DNA of 64,000 bases from Rhodamnia argentea (Eukaryota > Streptophyta > Magnoliopsida > Myrtales > Myrtaceae): assembly GCF_020921035.1 (NCBI RefSeq), contig NC_063159.1, positions 8,100,501 to 8,164,500 on the forward strand. The letters run 5' to 3'. A program made the translations under genes and the position numbers. The notes under the pieces were generated by a model. It did no database searches and was not told the origin of the DNA. It was given only the letters and a program-made list of their open reading frames with translations. Within the stretch, counting starts at the first letter, position 1. Each line of letters starts with the position of its first letter. Positions 9,100 through 33,509 of the stretch are shown here, piece after piece.

Positions 9100-9682
9100 C
9101 TATGCATAGGCCTGTGGGTTCTCTAAGAGGTAAGACTCCACAACCCTGAATATGGCCATGGCCTTTTCCTTCCCAGCCTTGATCTCCTCCTCTTCAACTT
9201 GAAATGCCTCCTTGGTGTTGTACTTGCTCTTCATCTTGCAAACCGACCCTCCGTCGCCGGCGGCCTCAAACTTGACCTCGTAATTGATGGATTCGAGCTT
9301 GTCGCCCAGCGCGTCGCCCTCGACCATCGTGTACCTACACACGAAGTTCTCCTTGTCGAGCTCGTCAATCCGGTGCCTCACGTACTTGAAATGACTAGCT
9401 ACATTTGTCACCGAACAAGAAGTGAACTCACCAAACTCGTTACTAGAGAGAGGATCCAAAAAAAAAAAAAAAAAGGGTGTGTATGCGACTAAACGTACCT
9501 TCGGTGAAATTAACTTGCTCGATGCTCCCGGCCCCTCCGTCGCCTTGTACGAGCTCCACGCTCTTTATGAACTGAGGCAGGAGCTTCGGGATCAGGGCAT
9601 TCGACTCGACGATCAACGCCTTGAACATGCGAGCCGGAGCGATCGGGCATGTGAGCTCTTGTGTGATGCTGGTTGCACCCAT
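9100..9682 (-). CDS. PR-10 / Bet v 1-like protein, copy 1
   Basis: This is a small cytosolic pathogenesis-related class 10 protein, whose family binds hydrophobic ligands in an internal cavity. There are two exons, 9499-9682 (184 nt) and 9100-9398 (299 nt), encoding 160 residues, a normal length. The intron (100 bp, phase 1) lies at the family's usual site right after VNFTEG. It holds a run of about 16 A on the plus strand. I chose the ATG at 9682, which gives [16 protein letters not shown]; the longer frame upstream has no family support. The glycine-rich loop reads [10 protein letters not shown]. The usual loop ends in lysine (GDGGPGTIK, as in the neighbouring copy), so this copy has a Glu there. 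The second exon carries [16 protein letters not shown] and KYNTKE, then the long C-terminal helix. It is in tandem with copy 2, 1.3 kb away on the same strand. The biological role of either copy cannot be told from sequence. Confidence 0.9.
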
Positions 9683-11005: not shown

Positions 11006-11750
11006 TCAATAGGCATCCGGATTTGCCACCAGATATGCCTCGATGGCCTTGAACATGGCGGACGCCTTCTCTTTCCCGGCCTTGATCTTCCCCTCGGGGA
11101 GGTCCACCTCGCCGATGGTGTAGTACTTGCTCGTGCTCTTGCACACCGAGCCTCCGTCGGGCGACGCGGTGATCTTCACATCGTAGCTGATCTTCTCGAA
11201 GGTGGTGCCCAGCGGGTCGCCCTCAATGATCGAGTAGCAGTAGGCGAAGTTCTCCTTGTCCAGGGTCTCGACCTTGTGCTTTACCGTCTTGTACTGACTG
11301 CCTATAAAAGCAACAAAAGAAAGATAAGAGTTGTGACTCTCCGGTTTCGACATCGCAGGCACTGATCTTGATGGTGCCGATCAGGCCATTTAGACTTAGA
11401 CATGGCCTGTTCGAAATCGAGTCACATGATCACTCGTGTAATGTTAATGGTTAGGAACATCTTAATTAACCAAGTTATGTTTCTGTCTTTGTCGATGGTC
11501 ATGGTAATGTTCCATAAGGTTGAAACCGAGTTCATTCCGAGTGATCGTAACACAGGACGGACTAACCTTCGCCGAAATTGATCAACTTGATGGTCCCGGG
11601 ACCTCCGTCGCCCTCGAGGACTTCTATGCTCCTGATGGCTTGCGGGAGGACCTTGGGGATGATGTTATCGGCGTCGAGGACAGCGGCCTTGAACATCTTG
11701 GCCGGAGGGATCGAGGACGTGATCTCGGAGTCGTAAGTGACGACACCCAT
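11006..11750 (-). CDS. PR-10 / Bet v 1-like protein, copy 2
   Basis: This is the second PR-10 protein of the tandem pair. Two exons, 11567-11750 (184 nt, exactly as in copy 1) and 11006-11301 (296 nt), encode 159 residues. The 265-bp intron is again phase 1 after INFGEG. The protein starts [16 protein letters not shown]. It has the canonical glycine-rich loop GDGGPGTIK, then [17 protein letters not shown] and the C-terminal helix ending VANPDAY. Start choice is firm because the Met-Gly-Val start is the family norm. Copy 1 and copy 2 differ at many positions, so the duplication is not recent. A good TATA box lies upstream. Confidence 0.93.
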
Positions 11751-11914: not shown

Positions 11915-12154
11915 AAGGGCATATTTATTTCACGAAAAAATGAATAATTTATAAAAAAAACTTAAAAAAATCGATCGCTTATGTTATTTGCACAAAAGAA
12001 TAAATAAAAATATTATCCACGTTCACAGAAATATTTAGACATAAATTATTACCGATAATAAAAATATTTATTATCGATTTATTTCAAGTGATACAAGCAA
12101 CTGTTTTTAAGAAAGTATCTTCCAAATCAATCATAGTTCGCGAAACAAACGGAG
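11915..12154. repeat. Tourist-like MITE, copy 1
   Basis: A roughly 240-bp AT-rich element. The right end inverted reads ACTCCGTTTGTTTCGCGAAC. The left end resembles the same sequence (CATATTTATTTCACGAAAAA). The centre carries a phrase like ACATAAATTATTACCGATAA. Related copies are at about 21483-21790, 22200-22360, 26365-26592 and 41402-41612, and the larger element at 14527-15946 shares the terminal CTCCGTTTGTTTC. It is non-coding. Confidence 0.6.
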
Positions 12155-13921: not shown

Positions 13922-14921
13922 TTAAGAAACAGTAAATGTTGAGAAAGCAAATTCAATCTGGCCGTGCCCACTAAATGCAGTCACAAGTTAGACGAGGCCT
14001 CCTCTCTGTTTTCGATCTCGATCTTACCAATGCCCGGTACATGTTCCAGTGGTCCACACAGACAGAGAACAGATACGGAGAGATTTCGTGAATTTTGATC
14101 AATTCCCACATTTAATCCGTCCCCCAATTTCAAATCGGCTTCCGTTCGCAGGACGGGGAGGGCGACGCTTCGGGCCGCCACTGTGTTGGAGCGTGGTTCG
14201 CGCTCCTTGTCGACAGGAACAGCACGGAGCTGCTGCTCTTTTTTTGCTTGTAGTCAAGAGATGTAACAGAGATGTACGATGTGCTAATTACAGTGGAATC
14301 CTCTGTTATGGTGAATCAGGACAAATCTTGTGTCTCGATTTTTTTCTTTCTTGCTTTCACGTTTTATTTCGCATCTGGTTGTGTGCCGAATCCCGACAAA
14401 GTGTTCTGACATTCGCGCACCTCGCGATTCAATCCCTAGGAGGTTGCGCAACCATTGGGAAACGATTACCGCGCACTCGAAGCCAGCCAATTTAGTCCCC
14501 GAGCAGGAATGGTCATTCCTCATTAATGCTCCGTTTGTTTCGCGGAAAATATGACTTTTTCGGAAAATATTTTCCGGGAAGTCATTTTCTAGGAAAATGA
14601 CTTCCTTTTCCGGTGTTTGGCAAAAACTTGAAAATGTTTAAGAAAATGTTTTCCGCCGTTTGGTAAGGAAAATTCGTCTTATTTTTTTCTTCAAAATAGA
14701 CTCTGGTGGTCACTTCTTTTAAAGTCTCCTCTCTCTCTCTCAGCTCTCATTTCTAGAGATAGAGAGAGAAATCCGAAAGAGATAGGCGTTGCGCATAATA
14801 TAATCCCCCGCACCGAGCAATAGAGATTTTGATTTCGGAGTGCACGCAAAGCACGCCACTAATGCTGCAGAAGAAGCGTGAGGCGACAGTGCTCGGAGCT
14901 CTGGCACCGTCCCCGCCCACG

Positions 14922-15068
14922 ATGTTGTCGGCGTTCACCGGGAAGTAGGTGGTCCCCGTCGATTGCGTCGCGGAGGTCTTGCAGCGTCTCCTAGAGGCCA
15001 CTCTCGGCGGTGACTCGGAATTGGCCGTCAAGTGCCTCGCCGACCCGCTCGTCAACGTCAACTACGTC
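14922..15068 (+). pseudogene. Captured first-exon fragment of an ankyrin-repeat gene
   Basis: The frame opens ATG and reads SAFTGK, a TAG stop, then VPVDCVAEVLQRLLEA and KCLADPLVNVNYV. From memory, a plant ankyrin-repeat family begins with the pattern VFPVDYEAEVSQRLLEA...CIADPFVDVNFV, so this is the N-terminus of that protein. The in-frame TAG, probably from a CAG glutamine codon, breaks it. The segment ends in GTC followed by GTAAAA, where an intron would begin, so the capture happened at DNA level and kept an exon-intron junction. It lies inside the Harbinger-type element. Confidence 0.65.
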
Positions 15069-15214
15069 GTAAAATCCCACTCTCAACACGCTTCAATTTT
15101 TTTTTTCCTTAAATTTTTCATAAAATTTCTCTACACGAACTCCACATAATATGGTGTAACAACAAGAAGAAGACGATACCAAAATTGGGAAAAAAAGGAT
15201 GATAAAGACGTCCT

Positions 15215-15439
15215 CAACGGAATCGTGAAGCGTTCACGTTATGGGACGGCGGGATCTCGAAATGCCAGAGCCTCCCCATGCGCTCCACCTTGTACTTCAT
15301 GCACGGGAACTCCTCCGCATACGCCCTCTCCACCGCCGGTTCATGTCGTGCGGGAACACGTGCGTCACCCCCTCCCCACCCGCCTCCTCACCATCACCGC
15401 CGCCGTGAATATCGGCCCCATCCTCCCCAGCGCCTCCAT
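15215..15439 (-). pseudogene. GC-rich coding-like fragment of unknown origin inside the transposon
   Basis: On the minus strand one frame reads EEFPCMKYKVERMGRLWHFE and continues IPPSHNVNA before a stop. Base composition contrasts with the AT-rich transposon arms. I do not recognise the source gene. It could be a second captured fragment inserted between two pieces of the ankyrin gene, or an unrelated stretch of that locus read antisense. Confidence 0.3.
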
Positions 15440-15525
15440 GGCGAGTCCGCCGCCGAGGTCCGCGTGGAGCACGAGGAGTTCAGTACGGACGTCACGGCTC
15501 TGCTCCCGGCTATAACTTTTCTTGC
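15440..15525 (+). pseudogene. Second captured fragment of the same ankyrin-repeat gene
   Basis: The plus-strand frame reads GESAAEVRVEHEEFSTDVTA and continues LLPAI. The same remembered ankyrin family has SPSEVRVEYEEFKTDVTAL a short distance after the N-terminal part captured at 14922-15068. Order and strand are kept, but the connecting residues are missing, so the copy is rearranged and cannot encode the protein. Confidence 0.6.
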
Positions 15526-16074
15526 TCGAGGCCGGCGATGCCAGGCCTCACCCGGCCACCCACCGACTGTGGTCATGGCCTGCGACCGGTCGAGGGAGAA
15601 GAAGGAATATTAAAAAAAATAAAAAAAAGACGAAAAAGGAAAAAAATAAAGAAAGTAATTAAAAAATAAATTTTATCCAAAAAATAAAATTGAAAAAATA
15701 AATAAAAAAGAAAAGAAAGCAAAAAAATAATTAAAAAGAAAAAATAGTTGAAAGAGAGGAAGAATGAAAAGTGTGGAAAATGTTTTCCTCTTCTCAAAAT
15801 GAGGAAATCATTTTCCTTAGTTTTAGAAGGTTTTTTTTGTTGACCGGAAAATATTTTCCGTTGACCGCTAATTTTCCGCCCCCCAAACACCGGAAATTGG
15901 GGAAAATGTTTTCTGGAAAAATATTTTCCGTGAAACAAACGGAGCCTAAATGCATGAATGCTTGTACTTGTAGAATTCTGCCATTTTCTAATTTAGATGG
16001 AAAAGAGGGTGGAAAAAAGATGTGTGTTTTTTTTAATAAAAAAAATTGAAAAAAGCGCATTAGAAATCATAAAA

Positions 16075-16305
16075 ATTATCACGAAAATACAATCGAATTC
16101 TAAAATTTTCAAAAAGTGTAATTAAATCCTAAAATTTATTACAAAATTACAATCGAGCCTTAAAAATTTTTAAAAATACAATTAATGTAAAAATTTGATT
16201 GAATTAATTCAAAATTTGTAGAATTCGATTATACTTTCATAATAAATTTTAAAATTTAATTGTATTTTTTGAAATATTTGAAGACTCAATTATATTTTAG
16301 CAACG
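16075..16305. repeat. AT-rich foldback element
   Basis: The left arm (ACAATCGAATTCTAAAATTT and following) and the right arm (GTAGAATTCGATTATACTTT) are inverted copies. Both contain a TAAAATTTATTA-type core. It is non-coding. The ends are not sharp enough to give a target duplication. Confidence 0.5.
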
Positions 16306-30837: not shown

Positions 30838-33509
30838 CTATCGCTGCGTCAACTTGAAAAGAACTGCTGCTAGAAGGGCTGAGTAGACTATGTTCGAAAA
30901 TGATTGGCTTCCACTGCTTGTGGGATAAAAAGAAGGAAGCGCGCACTCCTCTCCATTAAAGAAAACCTTAGTAGGAAAGCCATCTCCTCCCGGAACATTT
31001 ATCCCAGCAATATTTTTCTTGGTAAATGAGACCACAGACTGTTGTTTCCCGGGGACCCTAGGGTCCTTCTGTGGATTAGCTCCATCAGTTTCTGCTACAA
31101 GATAGTTTAATCCCGGGCGTCCTTGCATGAGGATGGTATTATTAGCGCCATTTATCTCCAACATGGTCGCATTCAACGAGTACATCTTTTCAAACCCAGG
31201 AGCAGCCTTATCCATTTGCACCGCAGCGAACCAATCAGGAAACGAGGTCTCGTCCCAGTTGAAGATCGTGACCCTCGCACTCCAACCACGGGTGTAGTCA
31301 GTGTATAAATGCCAATTGATGCTGACCCCGCAGTTATCACCACAAGGAAGTGGATTGGGCACTGTACGATGCTTCAGTTCTGCCCAAGCAAGTGCCAATG
31401 CTGTACGATTCTCGAAAGGAACAAGAAGTGCCTCTGACGGAAGAAGAATGGCTGGATCTGTGGTGCTACATGTTTGGCTGGTGCTGGTAGGGCACCCGCA
31501 TGCGCAAGTCCGGCACGGGACAATCGACTCATTGTAGTATGAAGAGAAAGACACGCAACATTTAGGGCTCGACCCCTTGGTTTGAGTGATATTGCACACC
31601 ACCTGCCAGCTGGCAACTGCAGTAGAGTTGGAGGGTAAGCCACTAGGGTCTGGGAACTGGCTTGGGCTCACTCGAATGGGTGGACCACACTGGTAGTCGG
31701 GATTCAGCGTGCCGTTGATCTGCCAATTCTGCGGAGGTGAGAGCGCCGATCTGTTGAGATCTGGTGGCATTTTGTAGACCTGCATCTGAAACACTGACGT
31801 CGACTTGCTTGGGTCCATTGACGGTGGCAAGATGGTGCCGTTTCTACAACAATTAGGAATCAAACCTAAAGTGCTGTCATTGGCCTTGGTTGGAGGCAAA
31901 TCAATTATGGTCGGCCGCTTCTCACAATTCAATACAGTTGAGAAATCCATTTCCTTGTAGTACGTGCCCTGGGTGCCAAATATGCAGTCACTAGAATCGA
32001 CAACATATGGATAAGCCCCTTTCATCGTGTAGATGAACTCCTCCCTCATCCAATCCCAGCTCAATTTCCAGTTATCAAGACGACCAAGAGGGTTGTGGTT
32101 GGCAATGGTGACCTGTGCCCAGTAGGACGAGTCATATGTTCTGATAACATCGTACATGATCGTCAGATCGCCATTTTTACGGGAAAGAAAATCATCGCCA
32201 ACAGTGATGTTGGCCTTGAAGTTGGTGTCTTTGGTGCAGCACACTTGCATCTCACTCTTGCCTGCAACAACCACATCCGAGAATTAAAACCTTCGCTTAA
32301 CATTAAGGGTGAACTGCATACTCGCAAACGATCGACAGCAATAACATCCCATATAATTACCCATTATCGCACCAGTAAAAACCGCTTCCATTCACCAAGT
32401 AATCATTGAAAATGGGGGGAGATTGGTTTCTTAAGTCTCGATTATTAGAGAAGGCTCTGTTAACAGAGCTATCTCTTAAAAGCACAGAAACCCCACAATA
32501 TGACCTCTTACTACTGAAGACATCTCCCTTCTGCATCGTTGAATCAAACAAGTTGAAAATTGTAATATATACAAAGAAAATCAAAGATGAATTTTTCTTC
32601 TTCAGATGAACTATTGCATAATCAAAGTGGCATCAGTCCTTTTCCACATGATCTCAAGTAAACGATGATCACCATCATATGAGTACCGTCATATCCAATA
32701 TAGTTTCCCCAAAAATTCAGGACAGAGACAGCACAAAACCACATCGAACCTCAAAGAACAAGATCCATATCATTTTCCCACTAAAGTGTTCAAGAAACCT
32801 TAGTACCAACCAATCCATCGCACTCAAAACCACTGATCCTTCACTTAGCCCCCAACATCAAAAGTTCCATTTGATAAACTTTCACCCGGTCAGAGATCAA
32901 TTATAGTCATTAAGAATAAAAAAAGTAAGAAATCACATCAGGCTCGAAACAGAGCGACGAGCACGAAATCAGCGGCAATGACAATCACTCACCCTGCAAA
33001 GTAGGCTTGGGACACACGAACCCATCGTTCGCCAACGAGATATTCGTCGGCATCGGCACGTCCGGCGACTTCACCCCAAACTGCGTCCCCACCAACGTGA
33101 CTTGCACCTGCATCTGCGTGACATCGCCCGCCGTCTCGATCGCCGTCTTCAGATCGGTGGCCGGATACCCCGCGAAGACGGTGCCGTTCCCGACACCGGC
33201 GGGCAGAGACGACCCGTCGGCCAGGATGGCATTCGAAGCAGAGACCAGGAGCTCGTCGTGCTGGAACCCGACGAAGACCATCCAGGACTTGAGCTCGTCG
33301 GCTCCATTGTTGAGGACGGTGAGCGTGGACTCGAAGCGGTAGGCCTGGTGGGTCGCGTTGACGGGGGGTAGCTGGGATCCGCCGGTGTAGGAGTAGGAGA
33401 GGAAGACGCCGTTGCAGGCGTCGGAGGCGGGCGACGGCGCGACGTCGGTTTGGGAGGAGGAGAAGGGTACAGCGGTCAAAATGAGGAGGATTGAGAGGAG
33501 GGTGGGCAT
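30838..33509 (-). CDS. COBL7: COBRA-like protein, COBL7 subgroup
   Basis: This is a GPI-anchored extracellular protein of the COBRA family, which affects cellulose deposition and oriented cell expansion. Two exons, 32993-33509 and 30838-32261, are separated by a 731-bp phase-1 intron and encode 646 residues. The N-terminus is a signal peptide ([20 protein letters not shown]). An additional N-terminal domain of about 150 residues follows ([15 protein letters not shown]...), which marks the longer COBL7-11 subgroup. The COBRA domain contains [10 protein letters not shown] and the diagnostic CCVS with the Cys-rich CRTCACGC. Many N-x-S/T sites are present. The C-terminus has a small-residue stretch (SSGSQSFSN) and a hydrophobic tail, as for GPI addition. 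The leader contains a GA microsatellite. Plus-strand frames across this gene are antisense shadows. Confidence 0.93.

Follow-up and report, generated by a model that had tools for sequence, protein, structure and literature searches.

We find that the 1,420-bp insertion at positions 14527-15946 of the analysed Rhodamnia argentea DNA (64,000 nucleotides in length, referred to as the window) is very probably a decayed, non-autonomous Pack-type PIF/Harbinger transposon with cargo from at least two genes. The original prediction had described a Pack-type Harbinger element carrying ankyrin-gene DNA, which agrees with the ends, the TAA duplication and the colinear ankyrin matches reported here but was incomplete, as a second gene of the IRX15/GXM family is also represented.

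Termini and target site

The outer parts of the element are composed as follows:

14524-14526, no strand, left target-site duplication TAA (same 3-mer on both sides)
14527-14552, plus strand, left terminal inverted repeat of 26 bp, 24 of 26 bases identical to the right repeat
14553-14692, no strand, left subterminal arm in which GGAAAATATTTTCC-like motifs recur (approximate inner edge)
15768-15920, no strand, right subterminal arm; a TIR-like sequence lies inside it at 15836-15857
15921-15946, minus strand, right terminal inverted repeat, 24 of 26 bases identical to the left repeat
15947-15949, no strand, right target-site duplication TAA (same 3-mer on both sides)

Both ends coincide with the predicted positions, and the matching terminal repeats and the TAA directly outside each of them are likewise borne out. 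The outermost base of the repeats differs, being T on the left and G on the right. Among duplication lengths from 2 to 11, only a length of 3 fits, and lengths 2 and 4-11 give mismatches. Allowing as many as 3 mismatches, a 24-bp pattern of the ends was found at only two places in the window, both of them the element's own ends, while 100 shuffles gave a mean of 0.00 and a largest count of 0. The window yielded 78 inverted 14-mer pairs (spacing 100-5000 bp, overlapping words counted separately, low-complexity words dropped), of which the element's pair alone has the same TAA/TTA on both sides within 2 bases, and no pair flanked in this way appeared in 30 Markov-simulated windows. These features, a 3-bp TAA duplication and terminal inverted repeats that end at it, are those of PIF/Harbinger elements. 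The duplications of hAT (8 bp), Mutator (9 bp) and Tc1/Mariner (TA) do not fit, nor does that of piggyBac, which is TTAA, and we therefore exclude these superfamilies. The end patterns had 0 exact matches in viral_contigs and genome_contigs, neither of which is a plant collection, so that this result says little.

Inside the terminal repeats, the inner arms contain the repeated GGAAAATATTTTCC-like motifs, and the internal TIR-like sequence at 15836-15857 is 86% complementary to 15918-15939; the inner structure differs between the two arms. When the two 200-bp ends were aligned without anchoring, they matched over about 165-190 bp with many gaps and a score of 100, compared with at most 56 in 500 shuffles and a best of 98 among 1,908 pairs of actual window segments at the same spacing. 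Because same-spaced window DNA comes this close, the long arm match adds little to the argument.

Gene-derived DNA between the ends

The predicted GC-rich core is clearly present, with 60-72% GC in several 50-bp bins compared to 40.4% across the window. It includes the following segments, of which the last is A-rich:

14922-15068, plus strand, presumed ankyrin-gene piece 1, ATG + 49 codons (residues 1-47 on 14925-15068)
15069-15216, no strand, mostly AT-rich stretch starting GTAAAA, probably the start of an ankyrin intron
15217-15439, minus strand, coding end of an IRX15/IRX15L/GXM gene (Pfam PF21729, NCBIfam TIGR01627)
15434-15514, plus strand, presumed ankyrin-gene piece 2 (matching residues 61-87 of the reference protein), adjoining the antisense GXM piece
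15515-15606, no strand, GC-rich stretch without a Pfam match reaching a cut-off
15607-15767, no strand, A-rich stretch (14% GC over 15607-15760)

The ankyrin pieces were located by tblastn with a plant ankyrin-repeat protein (the reference protein) that is not a database sequence, and it is on the basis of this protein that we take both pieces to be ankyrin-derived. Piece 1 is its best match in the window (27 of 48 residues identical, 53.1 bits) and piece 2 its second-best (20 of 27, 42.4 bits); the third-ranked match reached 21.9 bits, and 100 shuffled queries gave at most 25.8 bits. The two pieces are colinear, lie in one orientation and represent consecutive parts of the reference protein, as had been predicted for the two plus-strand segments. 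Over 14922-15071, the GC content at codon position 3 is 0.86, and piece 1 contains an in-frame TAG at codon 9.

Searches with the pieces themselves gave no ankyrin match in Pfam, NCBIfam or PDB, where the best hit (E 0.96) was of no use. Pfam does recognize ankyrin repeats in the reference protein, with the best Ank_2 stretch at residues 83-162, and the fact that the captured parts mostly precede this stretch may explain the missing Pfam and NCBIfam matches. A search of viral_contigs with the 49-residue piece returned 62 pattern matches and no relative, and a text search with six ankyrin peptides found no paper. In genome_contigs, there were 41 pattern matches to the reference protein; two sequences, from one and the same alphaproteobacterial MAG, proved to be relatives, one with 36% identity over residues 81-193 and the other with 34% over residues 64-193. 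This similarity lies mainly over the ankyrin repeats and we rejected these sequences as the ankyrin parent. No other comparable ankyrin match occurs within the window, and the parent gene is not located there.

The match of piece 1 stops exactly before GTAAAA, a plausible splice donor, and the DNA that follows is AT-rich (31% GC over 15073-15205), which suggests that 15069-15216 probably opens with the first part of an ankyrin intron, after which 3' untranslated DNA from the second gene may follow. GTAA occurs four times in the element. The proposal that the ankyrin intron had been captured as DNA is plausible, although only the donor side fits: the element lacks both a match to residues 48-60 of the reference protein and any acceptor.

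The original prediction also noted a GC-rich minus-strand segment between the ankyrin pieces, to which it gave no identity. We confirm that this segment is present and assign it to the IRX15/GXM family, which serves xylan formation. In the 20 frames scanned, PF21729 is the sole Pfam family below E 0.1, with two matches (E 6.1e-5 for profile positions 164-189 and E 1.4e-4 for 120-149, of 189) that occupy adjoining stretches of both the minus strand and the profile in neighbouring frames; two further Pfam matches, with E 0.12 and 0.19, are meaningless. Frame pieces queried separately matched PF21729 with E 4.8e-5 and 2.5e-4 and TIGR01627 with E 7.4e-4 (profile positions 187-222 of 225) and 0.002 (positions 153-172), while a third short piece alone had no match. 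None of these single-frame matches reaches the curated cut-offs. That of Pfam is passed only by a query in which the three frames were joined by hand, spanning 15217-15439, with E 5.9e-20 and 72 bits against a cut-off of 27.8; with TIGR01627, the same query reached E 1.3e-18 and 67.6 bits, which is below a cut-off of 149.85 that was set for the whole domain. Two frameshifts break the segment, one at about 15368-15377 and one at 15336. The match to profile positions 120-149 extends weakly to about 15463 and the junction with ankyrin piece 2 is therefore uncertain by up to 8 codons. A PDB search with the GXM piece gave 0 hits, and the window contains neither another comparable GXM match nor the GXM parent gene. 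With this segment assigned to another gene than the ankyrin pieces, the cargo is chimeric and combines at least two genes in opposite orientations.

We also considered a third gene in 15515-15606 and rejected it, as the best E values, 0.084 with five frames and 0.19 with the window frames, are far below the cut-off.

Coding capacity

Twenty-two stop-to-stop frames of at least 45 aa overlap the element, and 20 of these were compared with Pfam at an E threshold of 1; the other two, at 14284-14637 on the minus strand and 14315-14554 on the plus strand, belong for the most part to the left flank. None of the 20 scanned frames matched a transposase family, and it is this, together with the host gene pieces between the ends, that places the element among the Pack-type transposons. 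The cargo is decayed, as a stop codon interrupts the ankyrin sequence and two frameshifts disrupt the GXM sequence, and probably no protein is made from it. On the plus strand, a 135-aa open frame at 15206-15613 spans the antisense GXM piece and ankyrin piece 2; it has no Pfam match and is probably a chance product of GC-rich DNA.

Origin of the element and alternative readings

Following published work on such elements, we propose that a PIF/Harbinger transposase encoded outside the element recognized its ends and mobilised it, and that insertion would have duplicated a TAA target, which now flanks both sides. The element has probably captured, in one orientation, ankyrin DNA from the 5' end of the gene and from within a later exon, to judge by the match to the reference protein, and, in the other, IRX15/GXM DNA comprising the 3' coding end, to judge by the profile matches. 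The likeliest route of capture would be the published one, in which neighbouring related insertions are mobilised as a unit together with the intervening DNA, and internal deletions or recombination may have contributed besides. An effect on the parent genes, for example via small RNAs, is speculative. Several observations count against the Pack-PIF interpretation, namely that the window holds no sister copy and only a weak one-sided match at 12111-12154, that the ankyrin reference is not a database sequence and the pieces themselves have no ankyrin match in Pfam, NCBIfam or PDB, that the GXM matches of single frames fall short of the cut-offs, that the arm match is hardly exceptional and that the outermost base differs between the two ends.

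The arms could also be read as two separate but related MITE insertions that flank a pseudogene cluster, in which case the whole would never have moved as a unit. The TIR-like sequence at 15836-15857 makes the right arm resemble a small element of its own, and the arms are unlike in inner structure. Separate insertions should have produced separate duplications, yet the two outer ends share a TAA; this argument is not decisive, since a 3-base match arises by chance in about 1 in 64 cases, and more readily if both insertions chose TAA/TTA. We consider this explanation unlikely. A different question is whether the cargo came from a locus in which the ankyrin and GXM sequences were already rearranged, for instance a pseudogene of chimeric make-up or another element that had captured genes before, and was taken up in one capture rather than several. 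The position of the GXM piece between colinear ankyrin pieces of the same orientation, as if it had entered an ankyrin pseudogene, speaks for such a source; against it stands that no such locus is known here, and our results are compatible with both orders. This scenario, which we regard as possible but rather less probable than not, concerns the order of events and is thus compatible with the Pack-PIF interpretation.

It could further be argued that the chimera has been kept for a function, either as an RNA that is antisense to GXM and sense to ankyrin or through the 135-aa frame at 15206-15613. A frame does stay open across the antisense GXM piece and ankyrin piece 2, and a plus-strand RNA would be antisense to GXM, but the stop codon and the two frameshifts in the captured pieces and the lack of a Pfam match for the 135-aa frame make a retained function very improbable. 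Still less credible in our view is the combined proposal that the chimera was built inside the element by successive captures and that its plus-strand RNA acted or still acts against a cell-wall gene family via small RNAs. Under that proposal, the GXM piece would join reversed ankyrin DNA at a short shared stretch at 15434-15439, six bases that can be read as part of both genes.

Comparison with known gene-carrying elements

Gene capture by PIF/Harbinger elements is already in print (PMC2528002, PMC8903248), so that the element described here is of a known kind; the original remark that capture is less often reported for Tourist/Harbinger elements was fair. According to PMC8903248, TAA/TTA duplications flank most Pack-PIFs of maize and rice (52.4% in rice, 81.2% in maize), and the cargo of maize Pack-PIFs often comes from more than one locus, as in subgroup B1 of Zm-Pack-PIF cluster #18, which has pieces similar to two genes. 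Our element resembles these Pack-PIFs, as they are described there, in its PIF-type ends, its TAA/TTA duplication, its non-autonomous nature and its captured coding DNA, and differs from them in host, terminal sequence and the broken ankyrin and IRX15/GXM pieces that it carries (PMC8903248). In grapevine, PMC2528002 describes Pifvine-3, PIF elements with captured exons and introns. They share with our element the TAA/TTA duplications and the carriage of host exon DNA, the intron being only plausible here, but in Pifvine-3 the captured DNA is described as an extended 5' region next to the coding regions of the element itself, whereas our element is short and without a transposase match. Pack-MULEs and Pack-CACTAs, as cited in PMC8903248, likewise enclose gene fragments within their terminal repeats, and these too can stem from several loci. 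They belong to other superfamilies, with duplications of 9 nt for MULEs (PMC2528002) and 5 nt for the CACTAs of PMC8903248, in contrast to the TAA found here.

A narrow literature search found no paper linking IRX15, ankyrin and transposon capture. Set against the published record, the insertion is a clear but ordinary example of the documented gene-carrying transposons of plants. The class described in the papers cited above for maize, rice and grapevine thereby gains one clear PIF-type Pack element with a two-gene cargo, in which pieces of unrelated genes lie in opposite orientations within one short element. For gene annotators, it is also a caution against calling 14880-15600 an ankyrin gene or a GXM gene, as the stretch is neither.

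Surrounding sequence

Of the 10 window frames scanned, five matched a Pfam family with E no higher than 0.01: two matched Bet v 1, one COBRA and one DUF1218, and one gave a weak Myb match below the cut-off. The COBRA and Bet v 1 genes give the window the look of plant DNA. The Bet v 1-family coding stretches lie at 9100-9564 and 11006-11380 on the minus strand and are probably tandem genes, and a COBRA-like gene with COBRA and COB_C domains is located at 30838-32283, also on the minus strand. The one-sided TIR-like sequence at 12111-12154 (minus strand; E 0.004, 13 bases identical, about 80% over 46) lies upstream of a Bet v 1-like gene and is perhaps a relic of a related element. Just downstream of the transposon, at 16064-16279, are AT-rich inverted repeats with 72-nt arms that are 76% complementary, together with further pairs, and these perhaps represent another small MITE.
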